A DNA stretch of 27,107 nucleotides from a virus. Numbering within the stretch: position 1 is the stretch's first letter; each line of letters opens with the position of its first letter. Of this stretch, positions 36 through 27,107 are shown piece after piece. A model generated the notes under the pieces. That model saw only the letters and a list, made by a program, of their open reading frames with translations. It was not told the DNA's origin and made no database searches. Location: positions 1-27,107 of IMG/VR virus record IMGVR_UViG_3300030450_002231; one strand, 5' to 3'. The position numbers were made by a program, and so were the translations under genes.

Positions 36-416
36 CTTTTACAGCCACTCAGGAATGAAGTAGGTTCTATTAGGATTACAAGTGGCTATAGAAGTCCAGA
101 ACTCTCAGAGGTCATAGGATCATCTTCTAATTCACAGCATTGCAGATATGAAGCCATTGATTGTCAATACGTTAAGCGTGGCTCAATGGACAACTTAAAA
201 ATTTACAAAGCATTAATAGATTTAGACTTAGACTTTGATCAATGTATTTTAGAGTTCGGTAATCCTGCACCAACGGAAAGGTTAGATACTACTCATCCTG
301 CTTGGATTCATTTAAGTTGGAAAATAAGTGACAATAGAAAACAGGTTCTAGTTGCATATAAAGACAAGAACAATAAAACTAAATATCGTTCACCAATAGA
401 TTATAATTGTTTATGA
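1..416 (+). CDS. Peptidase M15-family endolysin, C-terminal part (gene crosses the contig join)
   Basis: This is the open reading frame from base 3 to the TGA at 414-416; its start lies at 26985 at the other end of the window. Joined across the repeat the protein is 167 aa. It carries the M15 D-Ala-D-Ala carboxypeptidase signature: TSGYRSPEL, then SQHCRYEAID with His76 and Asp83 (bases 138 and 159), then WIHLSW with His133 (base 309). These are the expected three zinc ligands. Known family members cut peptidoglycan peptide cross-links, so this is the likely lysis enzyme, acting in the periplasm. No signal peptide is visible on the joined protein, so it would depend on a holin. Its stop overlaps the ATG of the 3-TM holin at 413, which supports a lysis cassette. 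Confidence 0.9.
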   Translation, partial: GIIKLRLLATSLLQPLRNEVGSIRITSGYRSPELSEVIGSSSNSQHCRYEAIDCQYVKRGSMDNLKIYKALIDLDLDFDQCILEFGNPAPTERLDTTHPAWIHLSWKISDNRKQVLVAYKDKNNKTKYRSPIDYNCL

Positions 417-23830: not shown

Positions 23831-24305
23831 TGGTGATCTCTATATGGTGGTTGACGTATCAGATACGAGTTCATCCGCAGCAGGAACTTCAAAAAAATTA
23901 GATAGCAAATTTGTTATCCAAACAGACAAAATATCTCTAAGTAATGCAGAAATAGTGGATTTACATAATACACCTAAACTATTAATAACTGCTCCTGGCA
24001 GTGGGTATTTTGTTCAAATAATAAACGCTACTTTTCACTGTACTTATGCTTCTTCTACTGAAACTTCATCTAATAATGCTTATATACGATACGGTAACAC
24101 AGCAAGTACTACTTTTTATTGGCAATGGTTTAGAGATATAATGAATGGAGATGTTGCCGACAGAGTGTTTTATCCTTCTGGATCAAATATTGGTGGTAAT
24201 TCTACAGTAGACAATGAAGGGGTGTATGTTTTTAGTAATGCTGCTTTTAATGGAGGTTGGAGTGGCGATATTTATATTACTTATCAAATAGTAAAACTAT
24301 CATAA
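23778..24305 (+). CDS. Beta-rich virion/fibre-associated protein, 175 aa
   Basis: The sequence contains TDKSALENHTGSGDLYMVVD, KLDSKFVIQTDKISLSNAEI and TPKLLITAPGSGYFVQIINA, ending GGWSGDIYITYQIVKLS. This predicted beta sandwich, with the phrase P.LLI.APG.GYF.QI, is a pattern I know from small fibre or decoration proteins of flavobacterial phages. The N-terminus resembles adapter segments that hook fibre proteins to the virion. Its TAA overlaps the ATG of the next gene by one base. Receptor contact is possible but not shown. Confidence 0.5.
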   Translation: MAGQRLTDKSALENHTGSGDLYMVVDVSDTSSSAAGTSKKLDSKFVIQTDKISLSNAEIVDLHNTPKLLITAPGSGYFVQIINATFHCTYASSTETSSNNAYIRYGNTASTTFYWQWFRDIMNGDVADRVFYPSGSNIGGNSTVDNEGVYVFSNAAFNGGWSGDIYITYQIVKLS

Positions 24306-25315
24306 TGATTAAATATATATTTTTATTATTACCATTTTTAACACTTGGACAAAGTGGCTTTTTTAAGTATTCTACTTTTTATACTTCTATGAGTATGAAT
24401 ACAAGTATGGTAGAGCAAGAAGACTACATAGCAGTAGATAAAGGTTATGAGGATGTAACTCAAGTCAATCCTTATGACTACAATTTAACTATAGGCTTGA
24501 GAAAAATAGCACGATTTGACTATGAGTACAAAGTTAAAACTTGGTATTACGGTACTGAGAAATCTGTTAGCGATAATGTTACTATTGGTAATAGCATTGG
24601 CTGGGAGTATCTATTTAATTATTCATTTATCCGTCATAGGGGTGACAAGTTTACTAATCAAGATTTTTGGCTTAGATATCTTGGACAGAAATGCGTGACT
24701 AAAATACAATTAAAAAACGATGAAAGACGTAATATGGAGTTTATTTCGTTTGATACGAGATATAGACTACAAAAAGGTAACTTTGATTTTACTTTGGGTG
24801 CTGTGGCTCGTCAGCATCCTGTTTATCACATTAATCCTATTGAAGACTTTTGGGTAAGCGGAGAAAGTACATTTAATGATTTAGCAGAAGATTTCGGCTA
24901 TTCTAGTGAATATGTATTTGGAGAGTGGCACTGGTTTAATAATGGCGAATTAATAGCAACTTCAAATGATGAGTTCTACAAGCATTATTTTGGTGAGGCT
25001 ATAGCAAACTATAACAGAGAGCAATTAAACGCATTAGGAAGCGTCTATGAGGTTTCTATGGCTATTGGAGTGGCTTACTACAAATATCATAATAAGGCTT
25101 GGCTACATACTTGGGTTAATTTAATGCCTTTACACTATGGTTTGAGTGATTATAGTTATGAGTATGATGGACCAAGTGTAGACTTAGATGCAGGTATAGT
25201 AGGAGGGCTTAGAATAACAAAACATTTAGGTGTATTTGTAGAGGGAACTTATTTGAATTACTGGGAAAAGCCCATATATGAGTGTAAGTTTGGTTTTAAT
25301 TATTTAATATTTTAA
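24305..25315 (+). CDS. Exported barrel-like outer-membrane protein, 336 aa
   Basis: ATG at 24305, overlapping the previous stop, gives a signal peptide MIKYIFLLLPFLTLGQSG with the Bacteroidota-type G-Q cleavage region. An in-frame start at 24257 would bury it, so I reject that start. The mature part has many alternating amphipathic strands: DYNLTIGLRKIARFDYEYKV, SFDTRYRLQKGNFDFTLGAV, SMAIGVAYYKYHNKAWLHTW and LGVFVEGTYLNYW. It ends CKFGFNYLIF with a C-terminal Phe, a barrel-insertion feature. It is not a virion enzyme type I know. An outer-membrane position in the infected cell is likely, for example in superinfection exclusion or late lysis, but this is inference. Confidence 0.6.
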   Translation: MIKYIFLLLPFLTLGQSGFFKYSTFYTSMSMNTSMVEQEDYIAVDKGYEDVTQVNPYDYNLTIGLRKIARFDYEYKVKTWYYGTEKSVSDNVTIGNSIGWEYLFNYSFIRHRGDKFTNQDFWLRYLGQKCVTKIQLKNDERRNMEFISFDTRYRLQKGNFDFTLGAVARQHPVYHINPIEDFWVSGESTFNDLAEDFGYSSEYVFGEWHWFNNGELIATSNDEFYKHYFGEAIANYNREQLNALGSVYEVSMAIGVAYYKYHNKAWLHTWVNLMPLHYGLSDYSYEYDGPSVDLDAGIVGGLRITKHLGVFVEGTYLNYWEKPIYECKFGFNYLIF

Positions 25316-25317
25316 GT

Positions 25318-26082
25318 ATGAAGAAAGTATTATCATTATTATTTTTTATTGCTTCTTTTGCTTTTGGTCAAGATTATGACTATCAGCAATTATGTTTAAC
25401 CTGTTCACAAGCACAAGGCTTTTACTGTGGAGATGATCCTTCTAATTGGACTCAATACGCTCCCAATGGATGTGTTCAAAATGGTTGGATTAATGACGGA
25501 TGGGAAGATTGTGTCGATGCATCAGATGAGAATGGAGCAGTTCCTACTTCAGTTGCTGATTGTGTACCACCACCACCTAACTGTGATACTGTGTTTATTG
25601 AAATTCCTTTTGTAGAATGGATATATGACACTATTCAAGTTCCATTTTATATATATGAAACCATCATCCAATTAGATACAATAATAGAAACAGAATACAT
25701 AACTCAAATAGTTATAGATACGGTAGAGATAGAAACGCTAGTGCCTGAATATATATATATAAGTGATACGGTTACTGTATATGAGGATGTTTTAGACACA
25801 CTCTATGTAGATGTAATAGAAGAAGTAGAGGTAGTTGTTTTTGATACTATAATAGAAACTGAATACGTTGAATTTTTTATAAATGATACTGTGGTAGAAT
25901 ATCAAGAAATAGTAATAACAGAGTATATTGATTGTGCTACTGGATTGCCTTGTAACTCAGGCATAGAAGAGGTTGTTGAGAAATCAAAGAAAAATAATTT
26001 AATTTACAATATATATGGTCAAGCAATAAGAAAGCCTGAAGGTATATACATAGAAAACGGAAAAATAAAATATAAATTATGA
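25318..26082 (+). CDS. Secreted protein with LDL-receptor-A-like motif, DT repeats and sorting-domain-like tail, 254 aa
   Basis: Residues 1-17 are a signal peptide (MKKVLSLLFFIASFAFG, cut before QDY). Residues 25-90 hold many Cys, with GWINDGWEDCVDASDE (56-71) like the calcium-binding end of an LDL receptor class A module. Residues 90-192 repeat D-T-(I/V/L) at 90, 104, 120, 134, 150, 160, 176 and 190, spaced mostly 14 and 16, in beta-rich acidic sequence; IIETEY occurs twice. Cys206 and Cys212 follow. The end (NLIYNIYGQAIRKPEGIYIE and KIKYKL) resembles a type IX secretion sorting domain, but it is shorter than the usual 70-80 residues. Likely a surface-exposed protein; its role is unknown. 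The stop overlaps the next ATG as ATGA. Confidence 0.6.
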   Translation: MKKVLSLLFFIASFAFGQDYDYQQLCLTCSQAQGFYCGDDPSNWTQYAPNGCVQNGWINDGWEDCVDASDENGAVPTSVADCVPPPPNCDTVFIEIPFVEWIYDTIQVPFYIYETIIQLDTIIETEYITQIVIDTVEIETLVPEYIYISDTVTVYEDVLDTLYVDVIEEVEVVVFDTIIETEYVEFFINDTVVEYQEIVITEYIDCATGLPCNSGIEEVVEKSKKNNLIYNIYGQAIRKPEGIYIENGKIKYKL

Positions 26083-26315
26083 TGAATATATTTAAAGATG
26101 ATAATAATTGGAATGAAAAAGCGATAATAGGTTTTGTTGCTTTTACAATTATGTGTTTAATAATGATCGCTGATCTACTTACAGGGTGGATAGGTAAAGA
26201 CCTAGTTATAAATGAATTTGTTTATGATTCTTTTGTATGGGTTGTACTTGGTTGTTTTGGTATTAGTGGAGTAGAGAAGTTCTCTGGTAAAAAATGTGAT
26301 AACTCCTGTAAATAA
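26079..26315 (+). CDS. Two-TM holin-like membrane protein, 78 aa
   Basis: Two hydrophobic segments, at about residues 15-33 (AIIGFVAFTIMCLIMIADLL) and 48-63 (YDSFVWVVLGCFGISG), flank a short loop. The N-terminus is short and polar, and the C-terminal tail (EKFSGKKCDNSCK) is basic and has two Cys. Size and topology fit a class II holin, and the gene lies four genes before the 3-TM holin in the lysis region. ATG at 26079 forms ATGA with the previous stop; a second ATG at 26082 is possible. There may be two holins, or one may be an antiholin. Confidence 0.6.
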   Translation: MMNIFKDDNNWNEKAIIGFVAFTIMCLIMIADLLTGWIGKDLVINEFVYDSFVWVVLGCFGISGVEKFSGKKCDNSCK

Positions 26316-26599
26316 TGAAAAAAGAACTTTCTGAAAATTCAAAAGTAGAAGTTAGCCTAAAGACATTAGGCGGCATTGGTGTGCTTATAGCAACGCTAGT
26401 AGGTATGTGGTTTCAACTAAATGCTTCAATAGAAGAGGCTAAGATGTTGCCAGAACCACCACCGCCAGAAGTTACTAAGATGGAGTTTGATATGAAAGAT
26501 CAAATGATCCGTGCTACAATTATGACAACACAGGAAGATGTTACAGAAATAAAAGAGGATATGAAGTATCTTAGAAACAAGATAGACAATATGCAATGA
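26315..26599 (+). CDS. Single-TM coiled-coil protein, spanin-like topology, 94 aa
   Basis: The protein has a short polar N-terminus, a membrane segment at about 18-36 (TLGGIGVLIATLVGMWFQL), a proline-rich hinge (LPEPPPPEV, 45-53) and a helical coiled-coil tail (TQEDVTEIKEDMKYLRNKID). This N-in, tail-in-periplasm form resembles Rz inner-membrane spanins, though no overlapping lipoprotein partner is visible in the gene. It lies between the holin-like and thioredoxin-like genes in the envelope cluster. Starts by TAATG and ends by ATGA overlap. Spanin function is inference from topology. Confidence 0.5.
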   Translation: MKKELSENSKVEVSLKTLGGIGVLIATLVGMWFQLNASIEEAKMLPEPPPPEVTKMEFDMKDQMIRATIMTTQEDVTEIKEDMKYLRNKIDNMQ

Positions 26600-26985
26600 A
26601 TATAACTAACTATTTATATATCTTAATCTCATTGTTGTTCTTTATTGTTGGAATAGCAAGTGGTCAAGACTTTTTAACAGAGGCTAATTTTGAAGATAAA
26701 ACAGCCAAAGATATAGTAGCAGTAGAGTTTTGGGTTGAGTGGAATAAGTCTAATGAGTTTGCTGAATTTGTTAAGTTAGATGATTGTGAAAAATATAGAG
26801 TAGACATAGGTAGTTTTCCTAGTCTACAGAAAAAATATAATGTTACTTGTATACCTACTGTAATTATCTTTGAAAGCGGTGAGGAAAAAGAAAGATTTAA
26901 AGCAAACATAATGTTTAAACTAGATGCTACTAAAAAGGATGTTCAGAAAAGTATAGACAGGATAATGTTAGCAAAATTTGAATAA
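26596..26985 (+). CDS. Exported thioredoxin-fold protein without active-site cysteines, 129 aa
   Basis: Residues 1-23 form a hydrophobic signal or anchor that ends in SGQDF. The rest fits thioredoxin: VAVEFWVEWNKSNEF (42-55), YRVDI, SFPSLQKKYNV, then CIPTVIIFESGEE with the cis-Pro at 87. The normal W-C-x-x-C is W-N-K-S-N (49-53), so it cannot do disulfide exchange by the usual mechanism. Only the Cys at 64 and 85 remain. Proteins of this type occur beside lysis genes in flavobacterial phages I know. It could bind a protein partner, for instance like T7 polymerase with host thioredoxin, but in the periplasm. Its stop overlaps the endolysin ATG by one base. Confidence 0.7.
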   Translation: MNITNYLYILISLLFFIVGIASGQDFLTEANFEDKTAKDIVAVEFWVEWNKSNEFAEFVKLDDCEKYRVDIGSFPSLQKKYNVTCIPTVIIFESGEEKERFKANIMFKLDATKKDVQKSIDRIMLAKFE

Positions 26986-27107
26986 TGCGATTAACTAAAA
27001 ACTTTACATTGCAGGAACTGATTTATTCATCAACTGCATTGCGTAGAAACATAGACAATACCCCAACAAAAGAAGGTATTATAAAATTAAGACTTCTAGC
27101 CACTACT
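26985..27107 (+). CDS. Peptidase M15-family endolysin, N-terminal part (continues at base 1)
   Basis: ATG at 26985 overlaps the stop of the thioredoxin-like gene (TAATG). The 41 codons read MRLTKNFTLQELIYSSTALR and on to IIKLRLLATT. The phrase F.LQEL..S is typical of the N-terminus of M15 peptidases. The frame passes through the terminal repeat into base 3 of the window, where the zinc-binding motifs lie. With the join at 27072/1 the whole protein is 167 aa. Confidence 0.85.
   Translation, partial: MRLTKNFTLQELIYSSTALRRNIDNTPTKEGIIKLRLLATT
27073..27107. repeat. Terminal direct repeat, right copy
   Basis: Matches 1-35 at 32 of 35 bases in the same orientation and the same reading frame. See the left copy. 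The three differences (27083, 27106, 27107) may be population variants or end-of-contig errors. Confidence 0.85.

Follow-up and report, generated by a model that had tools for sequence, protein, structure and literature searches.

Phage-encoded cargo of the type IX secretion system was reported in 2020 for Cryophage, where two enzymes and a PA14 protein, all with type A sorting domains, were proposed to be exported by the host machinery (PMC7468147). On the bacterial side, Prevotella intermedia has many cargos per genome with short C-terminal tails (short CTDs) of 40–55 amino acids (aa), built of motifs B, D and E with a gap of 1–6 aa between B and D, cleaved at experimentally determined PT/GI sites in which isoleucine is the most conserved residue, and associated with C-terminal glycosylation (PMC11969387). 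As the same paper points out, GFP could not be secreted and attached without the last 22 residues of Hbp35 (PMC11969387).

The gene described here has points in common with both systems. Like the Cryophage cargos, its product is phage-encoded and proposed to use the type IX system of the host, whereas instead of an enzyme or a PA14 protein with a type A domain it is a protein with a short CTD and no enzyme domain, accompanied by a constant barrel partner throughout a large phage group. The tail is similar to those of P. intermedia in length, in motifs B, D and E, in the short B–D gap and in the predicted cleavage ahead of Gly-Ile, while each phage has a single cargo, whose head is LDL-A-like and is followed by a DT stalk. 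An earlier note on this locus had regarded phage use of the type IX route for surface display as new, which is only partly right given the report on Cryophage (PMC7468147); relative to Cryophage, the present case adds a short CTD on a phage protein, joined to an LDL-A-related head, a barrel partner that is almost always present, a broad family (more than 200 matches in IMG/VR) and a Lys/Arg desert.

The window, that is the whole analysed stretch of 27,107 nucleotides, is phage DNA, with identifiable genes for portal, tape measure, head protease and terminase. An M15 peptidase (endolysin) gene begins at 26986–27107 and is cut by the window end, leaving only the N-terminal part (the full-length homologue from another locus, L003, matches PF08291 at 5.2e-9); the first ORF of the window (186–416) resembles the C-terminal end of the same peptidase, and the contig is therefore probably a nearly complete, circularly permuted genome. 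The family relationships, the matches of motifs and profiles, the linkage of the genes and the composition are observed directly; on their basis we consider it quite probable that ORF 25318–26082 specifies a cargo of the host type IX system displayed on the infected cell, with export, calcium binding, cleavage, timing and purpose being inferred.

Family, head module and stalk

The ORF at 25318–26082 (plus strand, as are all features given below) starts with ATG and encodes 254 aa comprising a signal peptide, an LDL-A-like head, a Lys/Arg-free DT stalk and a short type IX CTD, an assignment based on the reading frame and viral homologues. Scanning IMG/VR with a single-sequence query gave 43 viral loci with cargo relatives, and alignment-based scans gave 227 stretches with relatives of the cargo and 221 with relatives of the barrel, from which the fetched loci provided 141 unique full-length cargo proteins. 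These span 148 to 314 aa, differing in length mainly by the stalk (16–178 aa across relatives). By pattern matching, 141/141 of them begin with a signal peptide and a Q right behind it, have their ligand positions laid out as in LDL-A and end in the tail motif. In the window protein the signal peptide occupies residues 1–17 (25318–25368) and lacks a lipobox Cys, while Q18 behind it is invariant in 30 aligned members; signal peptides were judged by sequence pattern, without a dedicated predictor. No family was matched by the cargo protein in the NCBIfam scan, PHROGs gave no match for either the cargo or the barrel gene, and tblastn against isolate phage genomes detected no relative of either. 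Several of the metagenome series with cargo matches are presumably marine.

The head module extends from C26 to C82 (25393–25563) and is supported by invariant cysteines, profile matches in the PDB and a model (pLDDT ~84). In the 30-member alignment the invariant positions are Cys 26, 29, 37, 52, 65, 82 and 89 together with N59, D60, W62, D64, D70 and E71. The segment GWINDGWEDCVDASDE, in which the earlier note had seen the calcium-binding layout of LDL-A modules, is located where it was placed, at residues 56–71 (25483–25530), and W57, D60, D64, D67, D70 and E71 make up what we take, from established structural knowledge of LDL-A, to be the calcium-cage layout. The ligand positions of this putative cage are present by pattern in all 141 relatives.

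The proposed comparison with the LDLa profile gave a divided answer. The window protein scores 12 bits with Pfam LDLa (PF00057), under the gathering cut-off of 24.1, and 21 of the 30 members match at E<1 (best 4e-4), whereas the profile of the head finds LDL-A proteins in the PDB, namely LRP2 with its many repeats (4.7e-17), VLDLR (~1e-6) and the single-module entry 2knx (6e-5). In structural comparisons, Foldseek matches of the model, mostly LDL-A modules, all belong to the LDL receptor family or to complement entries apart from four YcfD, none being significant, and the VIA comparison gave LDL-A modules in 5/5 rows at Z 2.0–2.3. The canonical six-Cys pattern is unmet, with Asn59, invariant in the 30-member alignment, in place of the fourth Cys. 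What the module shares with LDL-A (PF00057) is its C-terminal half and the arrangement of calcium ligands, while its N-terminal half adds CxxC and YCGDDPxNWTxY, the motifs YCGDDP and NWTQY being absent from ordinary LDL-A. Because the PDB profile matches are accompanied by a missing Cys and a Pfam score below the cut-off, the head is, judged by its sequence, a distant LDL-A-related module and not a canonical LDL-A domain. A limited literature search for LDL-A in phages of Bacteroidetes found nothing.

Beyond phages, the same module is found twice in a protein from a Crocinitomicaceae MAG (locus L045) and in single copy in two further Flavobacteriales MAGs. At its C-terminus the L045 protein has a type A CTD (TIGR04183, 41.5 bits against a cut-off of 23, within a 1143-aa frame also holding the modules), and for this reason the head module is, as far as such sequence matches can tell, at home on type IX cargo. 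The bacterial cargo (1138 aa) has in common with the phage protein the head, the signal peptide, a Lys/Arg-free ectodomain and a type IX CTD, and differs from it by a long TIGR04183-type CTD, far greater length and the lack of a DT stalk.

The acidic stalk extends from C89 to C206 (25582–25935) and contains neither Lys nor Arg. DT(I/V/L) was said to recur in it eight times, mostly 14 and 16 residues apart, and both count and spacing are confirmed: the motif stands at residues 90, 104, 120, 134, 150, 160, 176 and 190, separated by 14, 16, 14, 16, 10, 16 and 14 residues, and eight copies were not reached in any of 20,000 shuffles of the segment (mean 0.6). Naming these repeats beta found no support, as the stalk is modelled at very low confidence (pLDDT ~30), the AlphaFold model being uninformative there, and a simple alternating beta strand was rejected by the anti-correlation of hydrophobicity at lag 2 (-0.38). 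The stalk leads to DCATGLPC (residues 205–212, 25930–25953), where two cysteines right ahead of the CTD, Cys206 and Cys212, are invariant in the 30-member alignment.

The C-terminal tail and the nearly Lys/Arg-free ectodomain

The last 40 aa, from Gly215 to Leu254 (25960–26079), carry the GI cleavage motif, motif B (IYNIYGQ), motif D (GIYI) and a Lys-rich motif E, and thus agree with the studied short CTDs in motifs, short B–D gap, length and GI site. YNIYGQ and GIYIENGKIKYKL, pointed out previously as looking like a shortened type IX tail, are present at the C-terminus as described, with the tail motif retained throughout the 141 members. The residues ahead of the cleavage-site Ile are mostly small (TG, SS, SN, SA, SG), and the Ile itself is sometimes Met or Leu among members. 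The suggested comparison with TIGR04183 failed: there is no match to the window protein in the NCBIfam scan and none in 20 virus records.

The interpretation of the tail as a short CTD rests on comparison with bacterial counterparts, which were retrieved by a consensus query; as we composed it from the published motifs already knowing the phage tail, some of the similarity was selected. For profile comparison 27 bacterial short CTDs were extracted, all located at C-termini. Aligned with them by hhalign, the phage tail gave a probability of 97.65 and E 2.6e-12, and its score of 51.9 was reached by 0/200 column shuffles (best 16.4; 8.2 for the reversed profile), which supports the proposal of a shortened type IX tail. 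A profile match for either end of the protein had been set beforehand as the test, and it was obtained for both head and tail. Of the phage proteins in the first set, 41 of 42 are matched by the HMM of bacterial short CTDs, the single miss (L029) being truncated ahead of its tail, as are 137/141 of the larger set at E<1e-3. Short and long bacterial CTDs match each other at E 1.9e-5; the phage tail compared with long CTDs gives only a weak score of 15.0, and in an earlier 30-column test against long CTDs of one genome 3/200 shuffles were equally good.

The occurrence of short CTDs follows that of the translocon: SprA/Sov was detected in 13/14 checked genomes with short CTDs versus 2/19 without them (Fisher 2.3e-6). 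One genome, G721, has 48 short-CTD matches and no SprA match, due to either an assembly gap or a divergent translocon. In one Bacteroidota family short CTDs number up to 63 per genome, while each virus record has exactly one such tail (30/30). A search of 395 Bacteroidota genomes with the tail profile yielded only short chance matches and is judged insensitive, because the consensus query then recovered true tails. Short CTDs were found in none of 339 genomes of the order housing the head relatives, and the host is therefore not identified.

Composition supplies a line of evidence independent of the tail comparison. The mature ectodomain, from signal peptide to tail, contains one Lys/Arg in 22,609 residues over the 141 phage proteins, while their tail region has 16.7% of these residues. 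In the window protein residues 4–221 form a Lys/Arg-free run of 218, compared with 89 as the longest in the other 32 window ORFs. The L045 cargo likewise has zero Lys/Arg from residue 18 to residue 1079, and in 20 regions of the same Crocinitomicaceae genome the median Lys/Arg content ahead of the CTD is 2.5% for 33 type IX cargos versus 10.4% for 187 other proteins (p 2.4e-17). Since this depletion is common to phage ectodomains and Crocinitomicaceae cargos, the phage protein is composed like the type IX surface cargos of these bacteria, although the reference for Lys/Arg content is a single bacterial genome. Lys/Arg-free runs of Crocinitomicaceae type IX cargos reach 1015 residues (L045 7941–11357; loci L271–L290, G001). 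A limited literature search found no paper describing such a desert.

The barrel partner and the neighbouring genes

Directly ahead of the cargo gene lies a gene (24305–25315) for a predicted 12-strand outer-membrane beta-barrel with a signal peptide, assigned by linkage and by an AlphaFold model of ~12 strands (pLDDT 73); the cargo gene begins 2 bases behind it. A barrel gene is found upstream of the cargo in all 43 loci of the first scan, within ~1 kb and mostly directly adjacent, and the cargo is the next ORF in 76 of 79 barrel loci, with a small ORF intervening in the other three. Other neighbours shift across loci, and the pair stays together. Small ORFs starting with MAFKM are located between barrel and cargo in a few relatives (L012, 5397–6000; L176 and L183, just after the barrel). 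The barrel family has no recognised relatives, and ~60–70% identity is kept across the phage group. Neither Pfam nor NCBIfam provides a family for it, and no relatives were found in 395 Bacteroidota genomes by a search without positive control. The model resembles Tsx (Z 15.5 over 188 residues), KdgM, NanC, FapF and autotransporter barrels, a generic likeness as Tsx, KdgM and porins score as well as translocating barrels.

In gliding bacteria the SprF/PorP outer-membrane proteins are linked to type B cargos, with the barrel gene beside the cargo gene. The phage pair has the same adjacency, whereas its barrel has no profile match to these families, and an assignment as PorP/SprF was rejected in the absence of any Pfam or NCBIfam match among 30 members.

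On the other side the pair adjoins lysis genes. A holin-like small membrane protein (26079–26315), recognised by position and a hydrophobic segment only, and a small membrane-anchored protein with a charged C-terminal part (26315–26599), both conserved in many loci, are followed by a thioredoxin-fold protein with a signal peptide (26596–26985; Pfam Thioredoxin 2.2e-6) and by the M15 peptidase. The thioredoxin-fold protein is without CxxC, FWVEWNKSNE standing at the expected place; it is conserved downstream in many loci, a redox-dead thioredoxin near a nine-cysteine cargo.

Proposed export route and its possible purposes

In the route that we propose, the signal peptide would direct the cargo to Sec passage, and the head, stabilised by disulfides and probably by calcium, would fold in the periplasm. 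The short CTD would be recognised by the PorV/Sov machinery of the host, allowing the cargo to cross the outer membrane, and the tail would probably be cut before Gly-Ile, leaving the ectodomain on the cell surface, or releasing it from there, on its acidic stalk. Production is probably late in infection, because the gene lies 2 bases behind the barrel gene and beside lysis genes. Remodelling of the infected-cell surface appears to be the most likely purpose, for instance through receptor masking or superinfection exclusion: with receptors covered or exchanged, neither later phages nor the progeny of the phage itself would bind. In Flavobacterium columnare, gld and spr mutations result in phage resistance (PMC9233685), and type IX adhesins may act as phage receptors (PMC13288928). 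A late phage cargo which crowds or replaces such adhesins would limit adsorption, whether by competitors or by progeny meeting dying cells.

A stronger version of this proposal, which we put forward only tentatively and which is possible rather than probable, is that barrel and cargo constitute a dedicated two-gene system for rebuilding the surface, where the type IX-exported cargo would be held by the barrel and its strongly acidic, Lys/Arg-free, calcium-set coat would block phage adsorption, the desert being a general type IX rule in these bacteria copied by the phage.

Export by the type IX route may also serve lysis or release and not exclusion, for instance if the cargo weakened the outer layer or helped progeny to detach. 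The adjoining genes for the holin-like protein and the M15 peptidase are in line with this reading, which is nevertheless unlikely: the cargo has no likeness to a spanin or an enzyme, and in some relatives it is separated from the lysis genes by other genes, with the barrel still adjacent. The exported protein could instead benefit the living host through adhesion to particles or calcium-dependent aggregation, given that LDL-A modules are binding modules in general and that the head is also carried by large bacterial surface cargos. Integrase matches, however, are absent from 20/20 virus records, which speaks against a role in lasting lysogeny; although the records could be incomplete, long-term carriage seems improbable, and we rate this explanation as quite unlikely. 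In a reading which dispenses with type IX, the cargo would be exported or anchored by the phage barrel itself, on which its tail, as an adapted peptide, would dock. The adjacency in those 76 of 79 barrel loci, closer than for any other pair here, speaks for this reading, as does the resemblance of the barrel model to translocating barrels (FapF and autotransporter domains); yet that resemblance is generic, shared at equal scores with Tsx, KdgM and porins, and the bacterial tails to which the phage tail is homologous occur where the SprA translocon does, so that little credence is left to this alternative. Finally, a virion fibre or decoration protein with incidental signal peptide and tail, as the late-region position after portal and structural genes and the familiar virion shape of a stalk with a binding head could suggest, is highly improbable: virions are assembled in the cytoplasm, which fits poorly with a family whose members all bear a Sec signal peptide; the tail belongs to the secretion-signal class; and Lys and Arg are at normal levels in the window's structural genes.

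For the type IX cargo interpretation, the Lys/Arg desert common to bacterial cargos offers a rule of composition for proteins exported by this system that can be tested directly, and a minimal export tag of 40 residues on a small single-copy cargo could serve the study of type IX recognition. That a widespread phage group keeps a type IX cargo and an outer-membrane barrel as a near-fixed pair points to remodelling of the host surface as a common function in phages of Bacteroidota.
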